A stretch of DNA of 64,000 bases from Phosphitispora fastidiosa. GTDB taxonomy: Bacteria; Bacillota; Thermincolia; Thermincolales; UBA2595. The first letter of the stretch is position 1. Each line of letters begins with the position of its first letter. Below the pieces are notes generated by a model. That model worked only from the letters and a program-made list of their open reading frames with translations, was not told where the DNA came from and searched no databases. This document shows, piece after piece, positions 35,264-53,019 of the stretch. The stretch spans positions 1 through 64,000 of the forward strand of contig NZ_JAHHUL010000012.1 in the NCBI RefSeq assembly GCF_019008365.1, given 5' to 3'. Both the position numbers and the translations under genes were made by a program.

Positions 35264-36304
35264 TTACGGAAATACCGGTACATAATCAAGCCCTGTTTTC
35301 TCATTTAGCCCAAACATCAGGTTCATGTTCTGTACCGCCTGCCCTGATGCTCCTTTAACCAAATTATCAATTGTGGATACAACTACAACCCTACCGGTCC
35401 GGCTATCCACGGTCAGGCCAATATCGCAAAAATTGGATCCATAGACCCACTTGGTCTGGGGATACTGTCCCCGGGGATGGACCCTGACAAAAAACTCTTC
35501 ACTGTAAAAATTCTTATATAGCTCAAGAAGCTCGTCTGTTGAGTATGAATTTACGAGAGATGCGTAAATAGTACTGAGGATTCCCCGTGTCATTGGAACC
35601 AGATGAGGGGTAAAAGAAATGGTGACACCTGTCCCGGCCAGTTTGCTGAGCTCCTGCTCAATTTCCGGGGTATGCCGGTGTCCTCCGATATTATATGCCT
35701 TAAAGTTCTCATTACATTCAGCATAATGGAAAGCCAGATTCAGCCCGCGACCTCCCCCTGACACCCCTGACTTGGAGTCGGCTATCACAGTATCTGTTTT
35801 TACCATCCCGTTTTTCAAGAGCGGCGCCAGGCCAAGGATAATACTGGTGGGATAGCATCCGGGATTCCCGATGATATCTGCTTCCAAAATCAACTTCCGG
35901 TTAATTTCAGGCAGCCCGTATACCGACCTGGCTGCAAGATCCGGGGTCTTATGGGTAACTTTGTACCACTCTTCATAGGTCTTAATGTCATCAAACCTGT
36001 AGTCAGCTCCAAGGTCGATGACCTTTTTACCTGCCGCAGCCATATCCTGCACCACTTCCATTGAGACACCGTGTGGAAGCGCGGTAAATATCACATCACA
36101 CCGTTCAGCCAATGACTGTGTATCCTGAACCTCCAACACAGCTTCCGAAAAACCTCCGGTACTGGGAAACACACTGTCAAAACGCTGTTGAGAATAGGTC
36201 TGTGATGTCAGTCCCACCAACTCTACTTCCGGATGGCGGGACAGTATCCTGATTAGTTCCACTCCAGTATAACCGGTAGCCCCAATAATTCCTGCCTTAA
36301 TCAT
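35264..36304 (-). CDS. argC: N-acetyl-gamma-glutamyl-phosphate reductase
   Basis: The 346-aa NADPH-dependent reductase performs the third step of arginine synthesis. The open frame runs to 36469, but the ATG at 36304 starts the family N-terminus MIKAGIIGATGYTGVELIRIL and follows AGAGGAG. The catalytic Cys lies in GNPGCYPTS and the His-containing HPRGQYPQTKWV segment is present. It is the first gene of the operon, behind a promoter overlapped by an ARG-box-like palindrome. Confidence 0.97.
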   Translation of the reverse strand: MIKAGIIGATGYTGVELIRILSRHPEVELVGLTSQTYSQQRFDSVFPSTGGFSEAVLEVQDTQSLAERCDVIFTALPHGVSMEVVQDMAAAGKKVIDLGADYRFDDIKTYEEWYKVTHKTPDLAARSVYGLPEINRKLILEADIIGNPGCYPTSIILGLAPLLKNGMVKTDTVIADSKSGVSGGGRGLNLAFHYAECNENFKAYNIGGHRHTPEIEQELSKLAGTGVTISFTPHLVPMTRGILSTIYASLVNSYSTDELLELYKNFYSEEFFVRVHPRGQYPQTKWVYGSNFCDIGLTVDSRTGRVVVVSTIDNLVKGASGQAVQNMNLMFGLNEKTGLDYVPVFP

Positions 36305-36358
36305 TCTCTTTTCATCTCCTCTAATCAGCGGTATAAATTTCCTGCCTAATAATTTATA

Positions 36359-36390
36359 ATTATACATCACTACTGCATAAAAATGCAATA
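36359..36390 (-). promoter_or_regulatory. argC promoter with overlapping ARG-box-like operator
   Basis: On the minus strand TTGCAT (36388-36383), 18 bp and TATAAT (36364-36359) form a good SigA promoter. The palindrome TGCATAAAAATGCA (36374-36387) overlaps the -35 and fits the AT-centred ARG-box pattern bound by ArgR/AhrC. Repression by arginine is inferred; argR is not in the window. Confidence 0.65.
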
Positions 36391-36412: not shown

Positions 36413-36491
36413 TTCGACAGCAGTGTTTACATTTCCTTTTATGTATGAGTTTATCCAGTTTTTCGACAATCAATTTAAAAACTTTTCGACA
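36413..36491. promoter_or_regulatory. Cluster of three Spo0A boxes
   Basis: TTCGACA, the complement of the core Spo0A box TGTCGAA, occurs at 36413-36419, 36462-36468 and 36485-36491, all in the same orientation and all within CTTTT/GTTTTT-flanked contexts. They lie 83-160 bp upstream of the histidine-kinase pair in the argC divergent region. Three exact heptamers in 79 bp is far above chance. Confidence 0.65.
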
Positions 36492-36573
36492 CATAATTTG
36501 AGACTTATTTCAAGCAAATATGCTATTATATTAAAACTAATGACCTACAAAAAACAGAGGGGGAATTCTAAAC

Positions 36574-38844
36574 ATGACTTCAGATATGTTGATAATCCCC
36601 GAAAAAGAAACAAAACAACCAAATATTCTCCTACAATTTATAGTAATACTGATAGCAGCTATCGCAATTGCCAGGCTGGCATCTCCTCAGATCTGGGCAA
36701 ACCATAGCAATCTCTGCCATGCCATGCTGGAACTGACATGTATATTTATAGCCGTGGTCATTTTTCTAGTGGTCTGGTTTACCTATGAACGTTCCGGTTC
36801 CGGACCTTACAATCACCTGATAGGGTTCGGATTCGTGGCAGTTGCTGTATTTAACATATTTCACGTTATTTATTACCCCGACTTTAATCTGTATCCTGAC
36901 GGGCGCAGGGACCTGACACTTTATTACTGGACTCTCAGCAGTTTCGCCGAGGGGATCATGCTGCTCATTGGGACCCTGAAGCTCTGTAAGGCAAGAATCA
37001 ACAAATGGGTTGGATTAACCACCTCCCTCGTATCCGCTCTAGGCATCTCCTACCTAATTCTGTTTTTTCCGGAGAGATTACCCCTTCTGGCCACAGAAAA
37101 TGCAGTGGTAACACCGGTCAAGACGGCCTTCGAATATTTTATTATAGCAATATTTATAGTTGTGCTCTGGAATACTGCCAGGAATTCTGCAGGAACCCAG
37201 GATGCACCCTCAAAATACATTATCCTTGCCGTAATGTTCGTTGTGCTTACCGAACTCTGCTCAACCCTCCCAAATGCCCTCTCCCCCTTTTTTAGTACCT
37301 TTAGACATATTCTAAAAATCATATCGTATTTTTTCCTTTTCCGCGGGATTTTTGTAAATGCCGTTACCTTTCCCTACGACAAACTGGAACATTCCCAGAA
37401 GTACCTCAACAGCATACTGAACGGATTACCACTGGGTTTGATAACCTACAATTCCGATTTCAGGCTTTCCTTTGCCAACCTCAGAGCCAGAGAAATCCTC
37501 GGCTGTGAGCATGAAGATATTAAGGGCCTGTCAACTGCCGAAACCTCGGAAAAGTTTTACACAGAAAATTCGCGACACCTTCCCGATAACAGTCTGGAAG
37601 CAGCAGGGCAGATATTTGAACAGCTTGGCACCGTCAAGAACAAGTGCGGTGAGCCTGTCAGACTTGACATAGATGTCCAGCGCCTTGAACCCGGGGGTTT
37701 TTTATATATTTTTGATGAGGCCGCTAAGGCGGAACAATTAGAAAACCTGGTCCTGCAAACCCGACCTATTTTTAGTTCTTTGAGCAACCCGGTTGTCATC
37801 TTTGACAGAAATAAAGAAATCATTTGGTATAATAGGGGATTTTTGAGCGCCACCGAAATGAATACCTCCGACATCCTTGGTATCAGCAGCCGGCAGCTGC
37901 TCAAAAGCCTGAAGTTTTCCAAGAAAAAGCTGCCCTCCGGTACCCTGCCGAAAATGTGCCCCAGCCGCACCTTCGAAATCTCTGTGGTTACCCCTAAGGG
38001 AACCAAAAAGGAGCTCATCCTCCATGCTTCATCTATTTTAAGTACTTCAGGGAAGTTGATGGGATATATTGCAATAGCATCAGACATTACAGCTGCCAAC
38101 ATTGCCAAGGAAAAGCTGCGCCAGCAGGAGAAGCTGGTTGTCCTGGGACAGATGGCTGCCGGGATTGTCCATGAAATCAGAAATCCACTTACAACTATCC
38201 AGGGGTTTACCCAATTGATCCAGGCAAAAACTGCCGAACAATCTACCAGGGAATTTACCCATATAATCCAAGGGTCAGTTGGTGATGTAAACAGGGTTGT
38301 TACCGATTTCCTCTCCTTCGCCAAACCCTGCCCCTGTAACTTAAAGCCAGTATCTCTGACCCTACTGATGAACTCTTTACGTCTGATGCTGGAAACCCAT
38401 TCATTTATGCAGGGAGTCGATATATCTTTAATAACATCACCTGGTGAGAAAATGGTGCTGGCAGATGAAAGCCAGATAAAGCAGGTTATTTTAAATATTG
38501 TTAAAAATGCCATCGAGGCTATGTCTGGGACTAAGACCCCTAAACTTCTGATAACAACCGGAATCAAAAACCTGACAGAAGAAATGTTTATTAAAATTAC
38601 AGATAACGGCAGGGGAATGACCTCAGAGGAAAAAATCCGGCTGGGGACACCTTTTTTCACTACTAAGGATACAGGAACCGGACTTGGTTTAAGCATATGT
38701 TACCAAATTATCAGGGAACATGGCGGCAGAATTGAAGTGGAAAGCAGCCCCGGTAAGGGAACAACCTTTTCTATACTCCTCCCTTATCAGGATATCACCC
38801 AAGGCAAACTGCCCGGAGTCTTTGAAATGGGGAAAACAGGATGA
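36574..38844 (+). CDS. Membrane sensor histidine kinase with MASE3-like and PAS domains
   Basis: The 756-aa protein has an N-terminal region of about eight transmembrane helices (residues 18-250) resembling MASE3, then two PAS-like domains (about 265-390 and 395-510). A HisKA domain follows with phospho-acceptor His in IVHEIRNPLTTIQGF, then an HATPase domain with N box (NIVKNAIEAM), DNGRGM, TPFFTTKDTGTGLGLSI and a final GKGTTFSILLP. AGGGGG lies 10 bp before the ATG. Its stop overlaps the start of a second kinase, and no response regulator follows. With three Spo0A boxes upstream, a role as a sporulation-type (Kin-like) kinase is the best inference. Confidence 0.9.
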   Translation: MTSDMLIIPEKETKQPNILLQFIVILIAAIAIARLASPQIWANHSNLCHAMLELTCIFIAVVIFLVVWFTYERSGSGPYNHLIGFGFVAVAVFNIFHVIYYPDFNLYPDGRRDLTLYYWTLSSFAEGIMLLIGTLKLCKARINKWVGLTTSLVSALGISYLILFFPERLPLLATENAVVTPVKTAFEYFIIAIFIVVLWNTARNSAGTQDAPSKYIILAVMFVVLTELCSTLPNALSPFFSTFRHILKIISYFFLFRGIFVNAVTFPYDKLEHSQKYLNSILNGLPLGLITYNSDFRLSFANLRAREILGCEHEDIKGLSTAETSEKFYTENSRHLPDNSLEAAGQIFEQLGTVKNKCGEPVRLDIDVQRLEPGGFLYIFDEAAKAEQLENLVLQTRPIFSSLSNPVVIFDRNKEIIWYNRGFLSATEMNTSDILGISSRQLLKSLKFSKKKLPSGTLPKMCPSRTFEISVVTPKGTKKELILHASSILSTSGKLMGYIAIASDITAANIAKEKLRQQEKLVVLGQMAAGIVHEIRNPLTTIQGFTQLIQAKTAEQSTREFTHIIQGSVGDVNRVVTDFLSFAKPCPCNLKPVSLTLLMNSLRLMLETHSFMQGVDISLITSPGEKMVLADESQIKQVILNIVKNAIEAMSGTKTPKLLITTGIKNLTEEMFIKITDNGRGMTSEEKIRLGTPFFTTKDTGTGLGLSICYQIIREHGGRIEVESSPGKGTTFSILLPYQDITQGKLPGVFEMGKTG

Positions 38845-40280
38845 TCAAAACAAAACCGGCAAACCCCGAGACACCGGCTTCATTTTTCCGAAAGCTGCCT
38901 AAGGACTCCTTTGAGCTCCCAATTTCAATTCCCATTAAGATTATTGAAGAATCCCCCCTGCCCTTTTCGGTATGTGATGCGGAAGGCAATTACATAACCT
39001 GCAACAAGGCATTTTGTGATTTGACCGGATTCACCCTGGAAGAACTGGTACAGACATCATGGATGGCAATCACACCTCCCGAGAATCTTAAAAAAGAAAT
39101 CAGTCTTGCCTATAAGTTGGTAACCACAAGCGTCCCCCAGCGTATCGAAAAGGAGTACTTCCGCAAGGATGGGACCAGGGTTCCTGTAGAACTGATTATA
39201 CACAGGCATTTTCAACCGGCTGCCAAGACATGTTTTGACTTTACTTTTGTTATCAATGTTGAAAACTTGAGAAAGATGACTGATAATGTCCTTGATGTGA
39301 TTACCGAGACCACACCCGAAGGGATCATCACATACTTGAGTCCATCTATACATAAAATTCTGGGCTATGATCCGGATAAAGTTGTTGGGATGCACCTGTT
39401 TGACCTGGTACATCCCGATGATATTGAAAGGCTGAGTATTGCCTTCAGCTCCTTTCTATCCGGAAGGGCTCCTGCCAAAACTGATTTCCGGTGCAGGCAT
39501 ATTAACGGTTCCTATCTCTGGATGGAAACAGTCGGAAATCTCCTTTATGATCAGAACAATATTATTTCAGGTGCAGTGCTGAGTACCAGGGACATTACCC
39601 GGCGCAAGGAACTGGAAAAGACCATGGCCCACCTGGAGCAAATAAATCTTGTGGGCGAGGTTGCGGTGGGTCTGGGACATGAAATCAGGAACCCGCTGAC
39701 TACTGTGCGCGGTTTCCTGCAGTTAATGCAACAAGAAGACGATTTAAACAGCTGCAGGGACCGGATTAATCTCATGCTGGAAGAACTGGACAGGGCCAAT
39801 TCAATCATCAAGAAGTTTCTGTTCCTGGCCAAAGATAAAGCCCTTCATTTAAAAGTGCAAAATCTCAATATTATCATACAGTCTGTCTCTCCCGCAATCA
39901 AAACAACGGCCAAACAATCCGGTCTGCGGGTGAAAACTGACCTGGGCATTACCCCTGACCTGCAGCTTGACGAGTCAGAAATTATCCTTCTGCTGAAAAA
40001 CCTCTCACGGAACGGTCTGGAGGCAATGTCCCCCGGAGGAACGCTGCTGATAAAGACATATGTCGAAGGCCGCTCTGTTGTATTGGCGGTATCTGACCAG
40101 GGAACCGGTATCCCCGACGACGTGGTGGGAAAAGTAGGAACTCCTTTTTTTACCACCCGCGAAAACGGCATCGGCCTTGGAATGGCCATCTGTTACCGGA
40201 TAGCTGCCAGGCATAACGCCACTGTAAAACTCGAAACCGGTCCTTCGGGAACAACAGTTTTTGTGAATTTCGAAGCCTGA
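38841..40280 (+). CDS. Soluble PAS-PAS sensor histidine kinase
   Basis: The 479-aa kinase overlaps the previous gene by 4 bp (ATGA), so they are co-translated. Two PAS domains (about residues 30-140, with CDAEGNYITCNKAFCDLTG, and 145-260) precede HisKA with GLGHEIRNPLTTVRGF and an HATPase domain (NLSRNGLEAM, DQGTGIPDD, TPFFTTRENGIGLGMAI). It lacks membrane segments and a receiver domain. The H-box and ATP-lid sequences match those of its neighbour, suggesting both serve one common partner encoded elsewhere, plausibly Spo0A. Confidence 0.9.
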   Translation: MIKTKPANPETPASFFRKLPKDSFELPISIPIKIIEESPLPFSVCDAEGNYITCNKAFCDLTGFTLEELVQTSWMAITPPENLKKEISLAYKLVTTSVPQRIEKEYFRKDGTRVPVELIIHRHFQPAAKTCFDFTFVINVENLRKMTDNVLDVITETTPEGIITYLSPSIHKILGYDPDKVVGMHLFDLVHPDDIERLSIAFSSFLSGRAPAKTDFRCRHINGSYLWMETVGNLLYDQNNIISGAVLSTRDITRRKELEKTMAHLEQINLVGEVAVGLGHEIRNPLTTVRGFLQLMQQEDDLNSCRDRINLMLEELDRANSIIKKFLFLAKDKALHLKVQNLNIIIQSVSPAIKTTAKQSGLRVKTDLGITPDLQLDESEIILLLKNLSRNGLEAMSPGGTLLIKTYVEGRSVVLAVSDQGTGIPDDVVGKVGTPFFTTRENGIGLGMAICYRIAARHNATVKLETGPSGTTVFVNFEA

Positions 40281-40301: not shown

Positions 40302-40880
40302 TTACCTCCTGACCCAACCGGTGAACATGGCCTGCAGTTTTGCCGGATCCTCAGTCAGAACAAGGTAAATATGGAGCGGGACAGTACCCAGGAACCATAA
40401 TGTGCCCAGGAAGTGATAAAACCGCACCTTTTGAATAGTGACAGGATATGGGAGTACATATCCGAAATTGCTAGAATACAGGATCAGGCCGGTAATAAAC
40501 ATAAATATAAAAATAAAAAACCAGGAACTATAAATAAGCCTCTGCCCGGCATTATATTTGCCGTGAACAGGGGGGTTTTTTTCCATAAAAAAGTAGTACT
40601 TCAGCAATCCCTTGAAATCAACGGCATCCTGCCTCCTGAACCTGATATCCCGGTAAGCCCCTGTCACCAGATGGTGGTATACCCAGGCAAGAAATATTCC
40701 AGATTGCAAAATACCGGCGGTCATCTGCATAAAGACAGCGATATCCATATCATAAACATCCCCAAGGTCGACCGGGTAGGATATATAAAGTCCCGATATC
40801 AACAGGAATGTCACAGTAATAACTGAACTCCAGTGAAAGAGCCTGGTGAGCCGGGACTGGATATAAACCTTTTGAGGCAA
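40302..40880 (-). CDS. [NiFe] hydrogenase cytochrome b subunit
   Basis: The 192-aa membrane protein has four predicted helices, with haem-ligand His candidates in RLFHWSS, YHHLVTG, YHFLGTLW and PLHIYL. This layout is typical of the HyaC/HupC di-haem cytochrome b that accepts electrons from the periplasmic hydrogenase dimer and passes them to quinone. It follows the large-subunit gene by 18 bp and converges on the kinase operon. Sequence gives no hint of further haem motifs. Confidence 0.88.
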   Translation of the reverse strand: MPQKVYIQSRLTRLFHWSSVITVTFLLISGLYISYPVDLGDVYDMDIAVFMQMTAGILQSGIFLAWVYHHLVTGAYRDIRFRRQDAVDFKGLLKYYFFMEKNPPVHGKYNAGQRLIYSSWFFIFIFMFITGLILYSSNFGYVLPYPVTIQKVRFYHFLGTLWFLGTVPLHIYLVLTEDPAKLQAMFTGWVRR

Positions 40881-40898
40881 CTTTAATCACCCTCATTT

Positions 40899-42308
40899 TT
40901 ACATTATTTGCAGGCTCTGCCTGCTGCCGTCTATTTTTATCAGGTGCACGGCACACGCCAGACAGGGGTCAAAGGAGCGGGCCACCCGCCCTATTTCAAT
41001 TGGGTTATCGGCATCAGCTATCGGAGTTCCCACCAAGGCCTCCTCAAGGGGGCCTCTCATTCCGGCGCCATCCCTTGGTGAGCAGTACCAGGCTGAAGGT
41101 GTGACAATTTGGTAATGAAGGATTTTGTTTCCCTTAAACCTTACCCAGTGAGCCAGCGCCCCTCTCATGGCGCCTGTATAGCCCACCCCTTCCACTTCCC
41201 GGTCCGGCATTTCATATGGCCGGTAAATGGGTTTACCCGGTTCAAGCTGTTTCAGCCACTCTTTCATCATATTGCCAACGATTTTGGCCTCAATGACCCG
41301 GGCCATAATTCTGTCCATTGTAGAAATGCCTCTGCGGTATTCCCCTTTCATCCACAGGTGGGCAATGGGACCTGTCTCAAAAGGCTTACCGGTATACCTC
41401 GGGGCCTTGACCCACGAATAAGCGCCCTCCTTTTCAGGTTCAGGATTAGTTTCCTCTTCAGCAGGATGTTTGGGACTATCCTGGACAAACCACGAATAGT
41501 GTACATGTTCCCTGATTAGTTCCGGATTAAATTTTTCTATCCTGCCACCGCTATATACACCGAAGGGCGTCACATATTCGCTGTTTTTTCCGGGAACCTG
41601 AAAATTGCCATATGCCAGGAGATTCTCATAACCACGACCGATTTCAAAATAATCATCATATTTCCGGGCCACCAGTTGGGCATCAGGAAGCGCCCTTTCA
41701 TGAATAAATTCCAATACAGTATCAAGTGAGCCCATAAAATTCTGAATCCTGTCAATAGTCGGCGGAGTAGTAACGCCACCCGGGATTATGCCGTGCTGGT
41801 GCGGCACTTTACCGCCAAAAATAGTCACCATTTCATGGGTAAGCCGGGCAATATCAAAATGCTGCCGATAACTATCGATCACCCGGTCGGTCTCCTGTCC
41901 GTTTAGCCGGTAATCGCTTTCATATCTCGGTATAAAAGGCGGCTGCTCCGGCCCCCTTATAAAATCCAAAACCGTCAGCAGATAAAAATGCCTGAGGTGG
42001 TTTTGCAGCAGGTCTGCCCCAAAACTAAGATTTCTTAATAAAACTGCATTTGACGGAATTTCTATTTTCAGGGCATCTTCCATAGCATGGGACGCTGCAA
42101 TGGCGTGAGCAGTTGAGCAGATGCCACAGATGCGCTCCGTTAGGTAAGCAGCATCCCTGGGGTCCCTTCCCTTAAGGATTTCCTCAAAGCCCCTGAAAAA
42201 AATGCCGCTGCTGCGAGCATCAGTTACGCGTCCGTTATCCACATCCACTTCCAGGTTCCAAAAGCCGTTTATCCGGGTTACCGGACTGATACGGATTAAT
42301 TTTGCCAA
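40899..42308 (-). CDS. [NiFe] hydrogenase large subunit
   Basis: The 469-aa catalytic subunit binds the Ni-Fe(CN)2CO site through RICGICSTAH near residue 60 and DPCLACAVH near the C-terminus. Both CxxC pairs are intact. Fifteen residues after the last His (LIKIDGSRQSLQIM) are the expected C-terminal peptide removed by a maturation protease, which is not encoded in the window; nor are the hyp genes. It is encoded between the small subunit (4-bp gap) and cytochrome b. A membrane-bound uptake (group 1-like) role is inferred from the gene set. Confidence 0.94.
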   Translation of the reverse strand: MAKLIRISPVTRINGFWNLEVDVDNGRVTDARSSGIFFRGFEEILKGRDPRDAAYLTERICGICSTAHAIAASHAMEDALKIEIPSNAVLLRNLSFGADLLQNHLRHFYLLTVLDFIRGPEQPPFIPRYESDYRLNGQETDRVIDSYRQHFDIARLTHEMVTIFGGKVPHQHGIIPGGVTTPPTIDRIQNFMGSLDTVLEFIHERALPDAQLVARKYDDYFEIGRGYENLLAYGNFQVPGKNSEYVTPFGVYSGGRIEKFNPELIREHVHYSWFVQDSPKHPAEEETNPEPEKEGAYSWVKAPRYTGKPFETGPIAHLWMKGEYRRGISTMDRIMARVIEAKIVGNMMKEWLKQLEPGKPIYRPYEMPDREVEGVGYTGAMRGALAHWVRFKGNKILHYQIVTPSAWYCSPRDGAGMRGPLEEALVGTPIADADNPIEIGRVARSFDPCLACAVHLIKIDGSRQSLQIM

Positions 42309-42312
42309 ACGC

Positions 42313-43500
42313 TCACCTTCTTTTCCCTTTTTTTCCGTGCAGCCGATACCTTCCGAGGTTAATTTCTTTGATTGTTCCTTCAGGGACGAAGACTACTTCC
42401 CGTGTCTTGTCCTCCGAGTGTTTTCTGATATCACGTTTTACTCCTCCACTCTTGGGACGGGTTCCGTCTATCAGGGTTGTGCCCAGCCTCCCGGTTGCCA
42501 CAGAGGCCGTGAGGTGTATCCCTATCCCTGCTGCAGTTATGGCTGCAATGCCTTTTCCGATTTTATCGGTTGTGGTCCTCAGCCCCAGTACATTCAAATC
42601 AGGCAGGTGTGCATAAAAAGGGGACATACCATCCGGAAAATCAGGGCTGACACAGCCAATACACGGTGTGTTGGCTTCAACCGGCCAGCTGTTATGCTCA
42701 CCAATCCACTGCCTGGTGGGACAGTCAACAAAAGTTACCGGTCCTTTACAGCCAATTTTATAAGTACATTTCTCTTCACCGGGGTGTGTGGCAAACTCAC
42801 CGTTGTCAAAGTGCTGCCTCCGGGGACACCAGTCATGTATCCGCCTGCCAAAGAAGATCTTGGGCCTGTTAAATGTATCTAATTCCGGAATTCCATAAAG
42901 AAGCAAATGGGTCAGGGTTCCCAATGCCCAATCCGGGTGTACCGGACAGCCGGGGACATTTATTACCTGGTTGTCTACAACCTTATGAACCGGAACAGAC
43001 CCCGACGGATTCGGGTAGGCGGCATACGGACCGCCAAAGGAAGCACAGGTTCCTACTGCCATTACATATTTTGCCTTGGCAGCAGTGAACCTGATGGCCT
43101 CAAGGTCGGTGAATATACTGCCATCGGCATGATGCCCGATGGCTCCATACCTGCCCCCGGCCTTTAACGGCACAGTTCCTTCTGCAATCAGAATAAATTC
43201 TCCCTGTTCCCGTTCCACTGTCTCCTTAAGATGCTTAATCGCCATATCACCTTCAGCAGCCATGGTGGTGTTACTATAGCAGAGGTCAATTGTGTCAAAC
43301 AAAAGCTCCCGCATACCGGGACGCAGGGTATTGGCCACGGAAAGGAAATCACCCGTGCAGGTCATCATCTCAAGCCAGATTACCGGCGGCTTCTTTCTCC
43401 CTGCAAAGGCCTCAGCTAAATGTGGGATCACGAAATCAGACAACTGAAGGGCTGCCGTGGTTGCCATGGCCGTTTTGAGGAACTGCCGCCTTGTAAGCAA
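42313..43500 (-). CDS. [NiFe] hydrogenase small subunit, Tat-exported
   Basis: The 395-aa subunit carries three Fe-S clusters. It starts with a twin-arginine signal RRQFLKTAM followed by a hydrophobic stretch, so the dimer is exported folded. Cluster ligands visible are Cys48 (TCTGD), GTCASFGG, NVPGCP for the proximal cluster; RIHDWCP and KCTYKIGC for the distal; DCPTRQW and PCIGC for the medial. The second ligand of the usual CxxC of the proximal cluster is Asp51, a 3Cys-1Asp set as reported for actinobacterial-type oxygen-tolerant hydrogenases. No C-terminal membrane anchor is seen; the cytochrome b must hold the complex. Confidence 0.94.
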   Translation of the reverse strand: MLTRRQFLKTAMATTAALQLSDFVIPHLAEAFAGRKKPPVIWLEMMTCTGDFLSVANTLRPGMRELLFDTIDLCYSNTTMAAEGDMAIKHLKETVEREQGEFILIAEGTVPLKAGGRYGAIGHHADGSIFTDLEAIRFTAAKAKYVMAVGTCASFGGPYAAYPNPSGSVPVHKVVDNQVINVPGCPVHPDWALGTLTHLLLYGIPELDTFNRPKIFFGRRIHDWCPRRQHFDNGEFATHPGEEKCTYKIGCKGPVTFVDCPTRQWIGEHNSWPVEANTPCIGCVSPDFPDGMSPFYAHLPDLNVLGLRTTTDKIGKGIAAITAAGIGIHLTASVATGRLGTTLIDGTRPKSGGVKRDIRKHSEDKTREVVFVPEGTIKEINLGRYRLHGKKGKRR

Positions 43501-52449: not shown

Positions 52450-53019
52450 CTATTCCGTTCTCGAACAGCCATGCTGTCCCAGGATGTCCGCCATCAGCCG
52501 GTATTCCCCTGCTCCATATCCTACAGGCCGTATTCTGTCCAGGTCAGGCCTGCCTTTTTCATCCAGCACATTTTCATCGAAATGTACCGCCAGAACTTCA
52601 GCTATGAACACATCATGACTACCGAGACTGATGACCTGCCTGACCCTGCATTCCATATTAACCGGACATTCGTTAATTAAGGGAGGTTTTACGTGGGCAG
52701 CCGGTATCGGGTTCAGGTGTTTTTCCTTGAACTTGTCAACTGTCCTGCCGGATACGGTGCCACAGTAATCCACTACCCTGATCCAATCAGATGAAGGTAT
52801 ATTAATAACATACTCGCCGGATTCTTTTATCAAGCTGTATGAATGCCTTGAAGGCTGTACTCCTATATATACCATCGGTGGTGAACTGTTCATAATCCCC
52901 GTCCACGCAATAGTAATAATATTTGGGGCGCTGTCACCAGACTGGCAGGTTACCAGCACCGCAGGGACAGGAAAGAGTATGGTGGATGCCTGTTTGGTAA
53001 CTTTATTTATGGTAATCAT
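52450..53019 (-). CDS. Flavin reductase family protein
   Basis: The 189-aa FMN-binding split-barrel protein shows the family features VLVTCQSGDSAPNIITIAWTGIMNSSPPMVYIGVQPSRHSY-like early region (residues 20-60) and ESGEYVINIPS. These bind FMN and often act as NAD(P)H:flavin reductases or as flavin-dependent electron carriers. It converges on the HD-GYP gene with a 12-bp gap and is separate from asnS. Confidence 0.88.
   Translation of the reverse strand: MITINKVTKQASTILFPVPAVLVTCQSGDSAPNIITIAWTGIMNSSPPMVYIGVQPSRHSYSLIKESGEYVINIPSSDWIRVVDYCGTVSGRTVDKFKEKHLNPIPAAHVKPPLINECPVNMECRVRQVISLGSHDVFIAEVLAVHFDENVLDEKGRPDLDRIRPVGYGAGEYRLMADILGQHGCSRTE

Follow-up and report, generated by a model that had tools for sequence, protein, structure and literature searches.

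In Bacillus subtilis, feedback of the sporulation regulator Spo0A onto the kinases of its own phosphorelay is already known: the expression of KinA and Spo0F is regulated by phosphorylated Spo0A (Spo0A~P), directly and through sigma-H (PMC8749435), and kinC is among the genes with 0A boxes (PMC12090719). A Spo0F-Spo0B relay is also kept in some Clostridia, where it can be recognized by its gene neighborhoods, and the Spo0F-Spo0B-Spo0A relay of Desulfotomaculum acetoxidans was validated in vitro (Davidson et al. 2018, PMC6136694). Few studies have addressed the sporulation decision in phosphorelay-bearing Clostridia, and recognizing sporulation kinases by sequence is difficult. Here, we analyzed a 64,000-nucleotide stretch of Phosphitispora fastidiosa (NZ_JAHHUL010000012.1, positions 1 to 64,000; hereafter, the window), in which two orphan histidine kinase genes, which we call K1 and K2, lie behind three 0A boxes (Table 1). 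On the sequence evidence, we read K1-K2 as a phosphorelay kinase operon that responds to Spo0A~P, with a probability of about 0.68.

The core TGTCGAA is recognized by the Spo0A proteins of both B. subtilis and Clostridioides difficile (PMC3485338). Its reverse complement, TTCGACA, occurs upstream of K1 in three exact copies within 79 bp, as an initial annotation of the window had noticed. All three lie on the plus strand of the 268-bp argC-K1 intergenic region, boxes 1 and 2 being 49 bp apart and boxes 2 and 3 being 23 bp apart. If the heptamer were scattered at random at its frequency in the window, such a triple would have a P of 0.00019, and none of 200 dinucleotide shuffles produced one. 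We then compared the region with that of relatives retrieved with K1 and K2 as queries (G001 to G005, with G000 being the P. fastidiosa genome itself); genome-wide statements here and below rest on pattern and family searches. All three boxes are kept in G002, whose K1 is 86% identical, while G001, a member of the same genus, keeps boxes 2 and 3 but has a degenerate box 1 (TTCGACG), for which reason box 1 was dropped as a core member. The conserved core is formed by the two proximal boxes, which are conserved above their flanks in the alignment of the relatives. G004 (apparently Firmicutes bacterium HGW-Firmicutes-8), whose K1 is about 46% identical, retains boxes 2 and 3 together with the −35-like and −10 elements, and the rest of its intergenic region has diverged from that of the window. 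The window and G004 agree at 21 of the 22 positions spanning box 3 and the −35-like element; in 1,000 shuffles of the G004 region, agreement was never above 18 of 22.

The promoter at the argC locus appears to have outlived its kinase in two of these relatives. In G001, K1 has been lost by an almost precise deletion (L077, G001:C6, upstream of K2 at about 52707-52850). About 16 matching codons from the start of K1 survive as part of the K2 leader, and the promoter before K2 still has boxes 2 and 3 as well as the −35 and −10 elements. In G003, a single, different kinase with a PAS-GAF-PAS architecture (909-910 amino acids [aa]) replaces K1-K2 at the argC locus (L224, G003:C34:47000-58000). It is preceded by TTCGACA, TTCGACA, and GTCGACA, 55 and 23 bp apart, and followed by hydrogenase genes as in the window. 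The kinase pair that the initial annotation described is therefore present here but is not obligate. The G003 ortholog of K1 itself (39% identical) is found at another locus, with ATCGACA and TACGACA upstream at the same 23-bp spacing as in the window. These two sites form the sole G003 match of the pair pattern TGTCGWW-N14-18-TGTCGWW, which matched eight times in five whole genomes, six of these directly 5′ of kinases.

The upstream regions of orphan kinases revealed a common promoter module, consisting of (T/A)TCGACA, a GAC(T/A) at −35 that lies 14 bp from the GAC of the heptamer, and a TATAAT or close variant 21-22 bp past the second GAC, often with a TG before it. Across the ten genomes scanned, the pattern CGACA-N10-GAYWW-N16/17-TANNAT had 31 matches, compared with 11 for the reversed pattern. 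Three matches are in the P. fastidiosa genome: the K1-K2 promoter, that of a 750-aa MASE3 kinase paralog on contig C16, and that of an operon on contig C2 (L225, G000:C2 around 102744) with genes for a signal peptidase and for several camelysin/CalY-like (Peptidase_M73) proteins. The composition of the C2 operon is reminiscent of sipW-tasA. Matches that had not been used to frame the pattern precede the G003 argC-locus kinase, two hybrid kinases on contig C30 of G005, and kinases on its contigs C36 and C55. K2-like PAS kinases are markedly expanded in G005, where the module stands before at least six kinase genes (contigs C30, C36, C49, C55, and C57), the two hybrid kinases on C30 being arranged in tandem. 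In G001 (L226), the module stands before a HisKA_3 kinase gene accompanied by a response regulator gene and a related secreted-protein gene. The module is not exclusive to kinases, as further matches precede unrelated genes.

A position weight matrix was built from 12 promoters outside the window locus, most of them preceding other kinases and one belonging to the distant G003 K1 ortholog, and was used to scan 327 kb of the P. fastidiosa genome. It ranked the window promoter first (28.7 bits) and that of the C16 kinase second (22.8 bits), compared with 12.9 bits for the best reversed-sequence control. A match of 20.3 bits in L164 was taken as a chance hit, since it lies antisense inside a hybrid kinase gene and lacks a good −10. 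With the consensus that it used, a generic promoter scan missed the K1-K2 promoter, whose −35 matches too poorly. Taken more broadly, one Spo0A-responsive design may stand before many nonorthologous phosphorelay kinases and some matrix-type operons in this family, by which Spo0A~P would activate a whole set of the kinases that feed it, as a distributed positive feedback within a clostridial phosphorelay; we offer this wider proposal tentatively, at slightly less than even odds.

At the window locus, the K1-K2 operon would be transcribed from a sigma-A-like promoter combining a weak −35 with an extended −10. Spo0A~P may bind boxes 3 and 2 and, once bound, would probably assist sigma-A RNA polymerase at the poor −35, by recruitment or stimulation, and so raise the levels of K1 and K2. 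K1 would sense a membrane signal via its MASE3 domain, both kinases would sense cytoplasmic signals via their PAS domains, and the phosphate acquired by autophosphorylation would be passed to Spo0F, Spo0B, and finally Spo0A. Spo0A~P would thereby most likely boost its own input through the phosphorelay, and the loop is probably positive because the proximal box sits just 5′ of the weak −35, provided that K1 and K2 act in the kinase direction. KinC and KinD of B. subtilis can act as phosphatases (PMC11210211). We thus infer the sign of the loop, along with activation in place of repression, Spo0F as the acceptor of the phosphate, and a net role of K1 and K2 as kinases and not phosphatases. The same phosphatase activity lends some weight to negative feedback, in which Spo0A would repress the operon or the kinases would mainly be relay phosphatases, and the DNA gives no certain sign, the box positions alone being compatible with repression. 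However, box 3 lies 5′ of the weak −35 and not over the −10 or the start site, and its geometry is constant across many kinases, as expected of activation, so that negative feedback seems unlikely.

Spo0A control of the K1-K2 promoter, which the initial annotation had put forward, is well supported by the phylogenetic footprinting, by the module on other orphan kinases, and by an unchanged recognition helix, the Spo0A segment SRVERAIRHAIE of P. fastidiosa being identical to that in the solved Spo0A DNA-binding domains 1fc3 and 1lq1. We infer that Spo0A is the protein that binds the boxes. The heptamer is also found about 150 bp 5′ of the spo0A gene itself, and a pair with 20-bp spacing, conserved in G002, lies 5′ of a SpoVT/AbrB-like gene (L038, G000:C8:70234-70260) that scores 116 bits against TIGR02851, under the cut-off of that family. 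Several points weigh against this picture. Bacillus Spo0A dimers bind tandem boxes at a 10-bp spacing, from which the 14- and 23-bp spacings found here depart. In the P. fastidiosa genome, the module precedes only two of the six orphan kinase units, and close TTCGACA pairs are not in excess genome-wide (2 matches versus 5 for the reversed pattern). We dropped this enrichment as evidence, as the reversed-pattern control equaled or exceeded the real count, and the weight rests on the location and the conservation of the boxes. No exact box was found in the 320 bp 5′ of spoIIGA, which ruled this gene out as a positive control for the form of the box; early sporulation promoters bound by Spo0A in C. 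difficile likewise lack an exact box (PMC3485338).

A regulator other than Spo0A that shares the TTCGACA core might read the module, with the kinases still being phosphorelay kinases. It would fit the unusual spacings, the missing spoIIGA box, and the absence of the full module at spo0A's own box. However, the exact 0A-box core is matched by an identical Spo0A recognition segment, boxes lie 5′ of spo0A and the SpoVT/AbrB-like gene, and the module occurs on sensor-kinase and matrix-like operons, which makes such a regulator distinctly unlikely.

The P. fastidiosa genome encodes both Spo0F and Spo0B in diagnostic gene neighborhoods. Spo0F, on contig C11, is a 132-aa single-receiver protein with the residues VDDQMGVRRLL, whose gene is downstream of pyrG and just 5′ of fba and tal. 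Spo0B, on contig C2, is a 191-aa SPOB_a protein with HDFMNHLQVILGLLQL and the residues QVGLQL, encoded immediately before obg. The genome encodes 20 HisKA kinases, 13 of which are hybrid or adjacent to a response regulator and 7 of which are orphans. All seven orphans carry HE(I/V)(R/K)NP(L/M)T(T/A/S)xxGFx(Q/Y)(L/I), with specificity residues of the T[TAS]GF[QY][LI] type, and GF followed by Q(L/I) was found in none of the regulator-adjacent or hybrid kinases whose residues were extracted. The residues are TTGFQL in both K1 and K2, fitting the TxGFQ(L/M/F) phosphorelay type in Table 1 of PMC6136694. In that paper, TTGFQL is also given for D. acetoxidans Dtox_1918 and QVGLQL for the Spo0B of that species, and the direct Spo0A kinases of Clostridium acetobutylicum have NVSAQV, NISAQL, and SVGLQL. 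From these residues and the gene content, Spo0F is the predicted first phosphate acceptor of K1 and K2; a further point on the debit side is that specificity residues are imperfect predictors of partners.

The initial annotation had instead suggested that the two kinases phosphorylate Spo0A directly, as in Clostridia, while being under its control. Orphan kinases do phosphorylate Spo0A in several Clostridia (PMC11210211), C. acetobutylicum and C. difficile providing the precedent for action without a relay, and the promoter evidence fits this model equally. However, it finds no support here because Spo0F and Spo0B are both encoded in the genome, each in its diagnostic neighborhood, and the kinases carry phosphorelay-type residues, not those listed for C. 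acetobutylicum in PMC6136694. Direct phosphorylation was dropped as the leading model once these were found, and we now give it a slim chance.

The domain search and reading frames agreed with the initial annotation as to the kinases themselves: both genes encode a HisKA domain, their frames share 4 bp (ATGA), and K1 is a membrane protein whereas K2 is soluble. The overlap is not conserved, as a 63-bp gap separates both genes in G002. The H-boxes are HEIRNPLTTIQGFTQL in K1 and HEIRNPLTTVRGFLQL in K2, with one PAS domain in K1 and two in K2; an N-terminal PAS domain is frequent, although not universal, among Spo0F-directed sporulation kinases. Hydropathy gave seven clear membrane segments in K1 and none in K2, and an AlphaFold model of K1 with moderate confidence (five input sequences; mean predicted local distance difference test score, 65.6) has eight long N-terminal helices, from residues 18-36 to 238-265, in line with eight predicted transmembrane helices. 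K1 scores 131.6 bits against Pfam MASE3 (PF17159; cut-off, 31) and 180.5 bits against NCBIfam NF047874 (MASE3_PAS_HK), below the curated cut-off of 560 bits. We found no literature on MASE3 kinases in an open-literature search.

The neighbors of K1-K2 are argC and hydrogenase genes, with no response regulator close by, and none of the 50 receiver-domain matches genome-wide falls on contig C12, in line with the orphan status given initially. The divergent argC arrangement is conserved in L004, L076, L077, and L224. In the window, a NiFe hydrogenase operon (cytochrome b, large and small subunits; 40302-43500) converges toward K2, and hydrogenase genes adjoin the locus in G000-G003 but not in L004. 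A local function of K1 and K2 in arginine synthesis or for the NiFe hydrogenase, through a response regulator elsewhere and with no sporulation role, would account for the conserved divergent and convergent neighbors in G000-G003 but is very improbable given the phosphorelay-type residues, the lack of a response regulator nearby, the K1 ortholog of G003 at another locus, and the absence of the hydrogenase beside L004. On the argC side, the palindrome TGCATAAAAATGCA adjoins a TATAAT-like element of the argC promoter (ATAATTTATAATTATACATCA) and is conserved in G001, G002, G004, and the G003 argC locus. A gene for ArgR is located near spo0A in the P. fastidiosa genome (L037:219-671).

Table 1. 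Coordinates of the genes and promoter elements at the K1-K2 locus (positions in the window)
Feature	Position	Strand	Basis or remark
argC, divergent neighbor	35264..36305	-	ATG at 36305 is the true start; the 401-aa open reading frame listed from a TTG is over-extended
Palindrome TGCATAAAAATGCA, probable ArgR operator of argC, outside the kinase promoter	36374..36387	.	Alignment; conserved through G004
Distal 0A box 1, TTCGACA, weakly conserved	36413..36419	+	Exact match
0A box 2, TTCGACA, 23 bp 5′ of box 3	36462..36468	+	Exact match
Promoter-proximal 0A box 3, TTCGACA, about −51 to −45 from the inferred start	36485..36491	+	Exact match, alignment
Weak −35-like element GAGACT	36500..36505	+	Its GAC lies 14 bp past the GAC of box 3; spacing as before other orphan kinases
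Extended −10, TGC TATTAT	36521..36529	+	18-bp spacer from the −35-like element
K1, MASE3-PAS-HisKA-HATPase orphan histidine kinase, 756 aa	36574..38844	+	Start ATG at 36574
K2, PAS-PAS-HisKA-HATPase orphan histidine kinase, 479 aa	38841..40280	+	Domain search, hydropathy, specificity residues

What looks new is that one precise module is common to several nonorthologous orphan kinases in a clostridial family and that it persists after kinase loss or replacement; we found no description of the module in the open literature searched, outside which most subscription papers lie. If true, the shared Spo0A-box promoter would provide a second, independent marker for sporulation kinases besides orphan status and specificity residues, as well as a concrete test of kinase-level positive feedback in clostridial relays. 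That the same design precedes other sporulation-type kinases in related bacteria points to a master switch in control of its own inputs. The residues and gene content found here would also correct the assumption that clostridial orphan kinases act on Spo0A without a relay.

Among known systems, the D. acetoxidans relay shares with P. fastidiosa orphan PAS kinases with TTGFQL, a Spo0F gene by fba, tal, and pyrG, and a Spo0B with QVGLQL encoded before obg. It differs in that K1 here has a MASE3 sensor and both kinases are encoded in one operon, and the part of PMC6136694 considered here contains no 0A-box promoter module for kinases. The orphan kinases of C. acetobutylicum and C. difficile (PMC11210211) resemble K1 and K2 in being orphans and in having Spo0A as the final (here predicted) target, whereas neither Spo0F nor Spo0B is present in those species, and the specificity residues of the C. 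acetobutylicum kinases are different. K1 and its C16 paralog share the MASE3 domain with other MASE3 sensor histidine kinases (PF17159; NF047874), although K1 is not a member of the curated NF047874 subfamily by its score. As for KinA and KinC of B. subtilis (PMC12090719, PMC8749435), the expression of a phosphorelay kinase is reported to be under Spo0A~P control there, directly or via sigma-H, but that control concerns single kinase genes, whereas here a fixed design of box, −35, and −10 is common to the nonorthologous kinases of a family.

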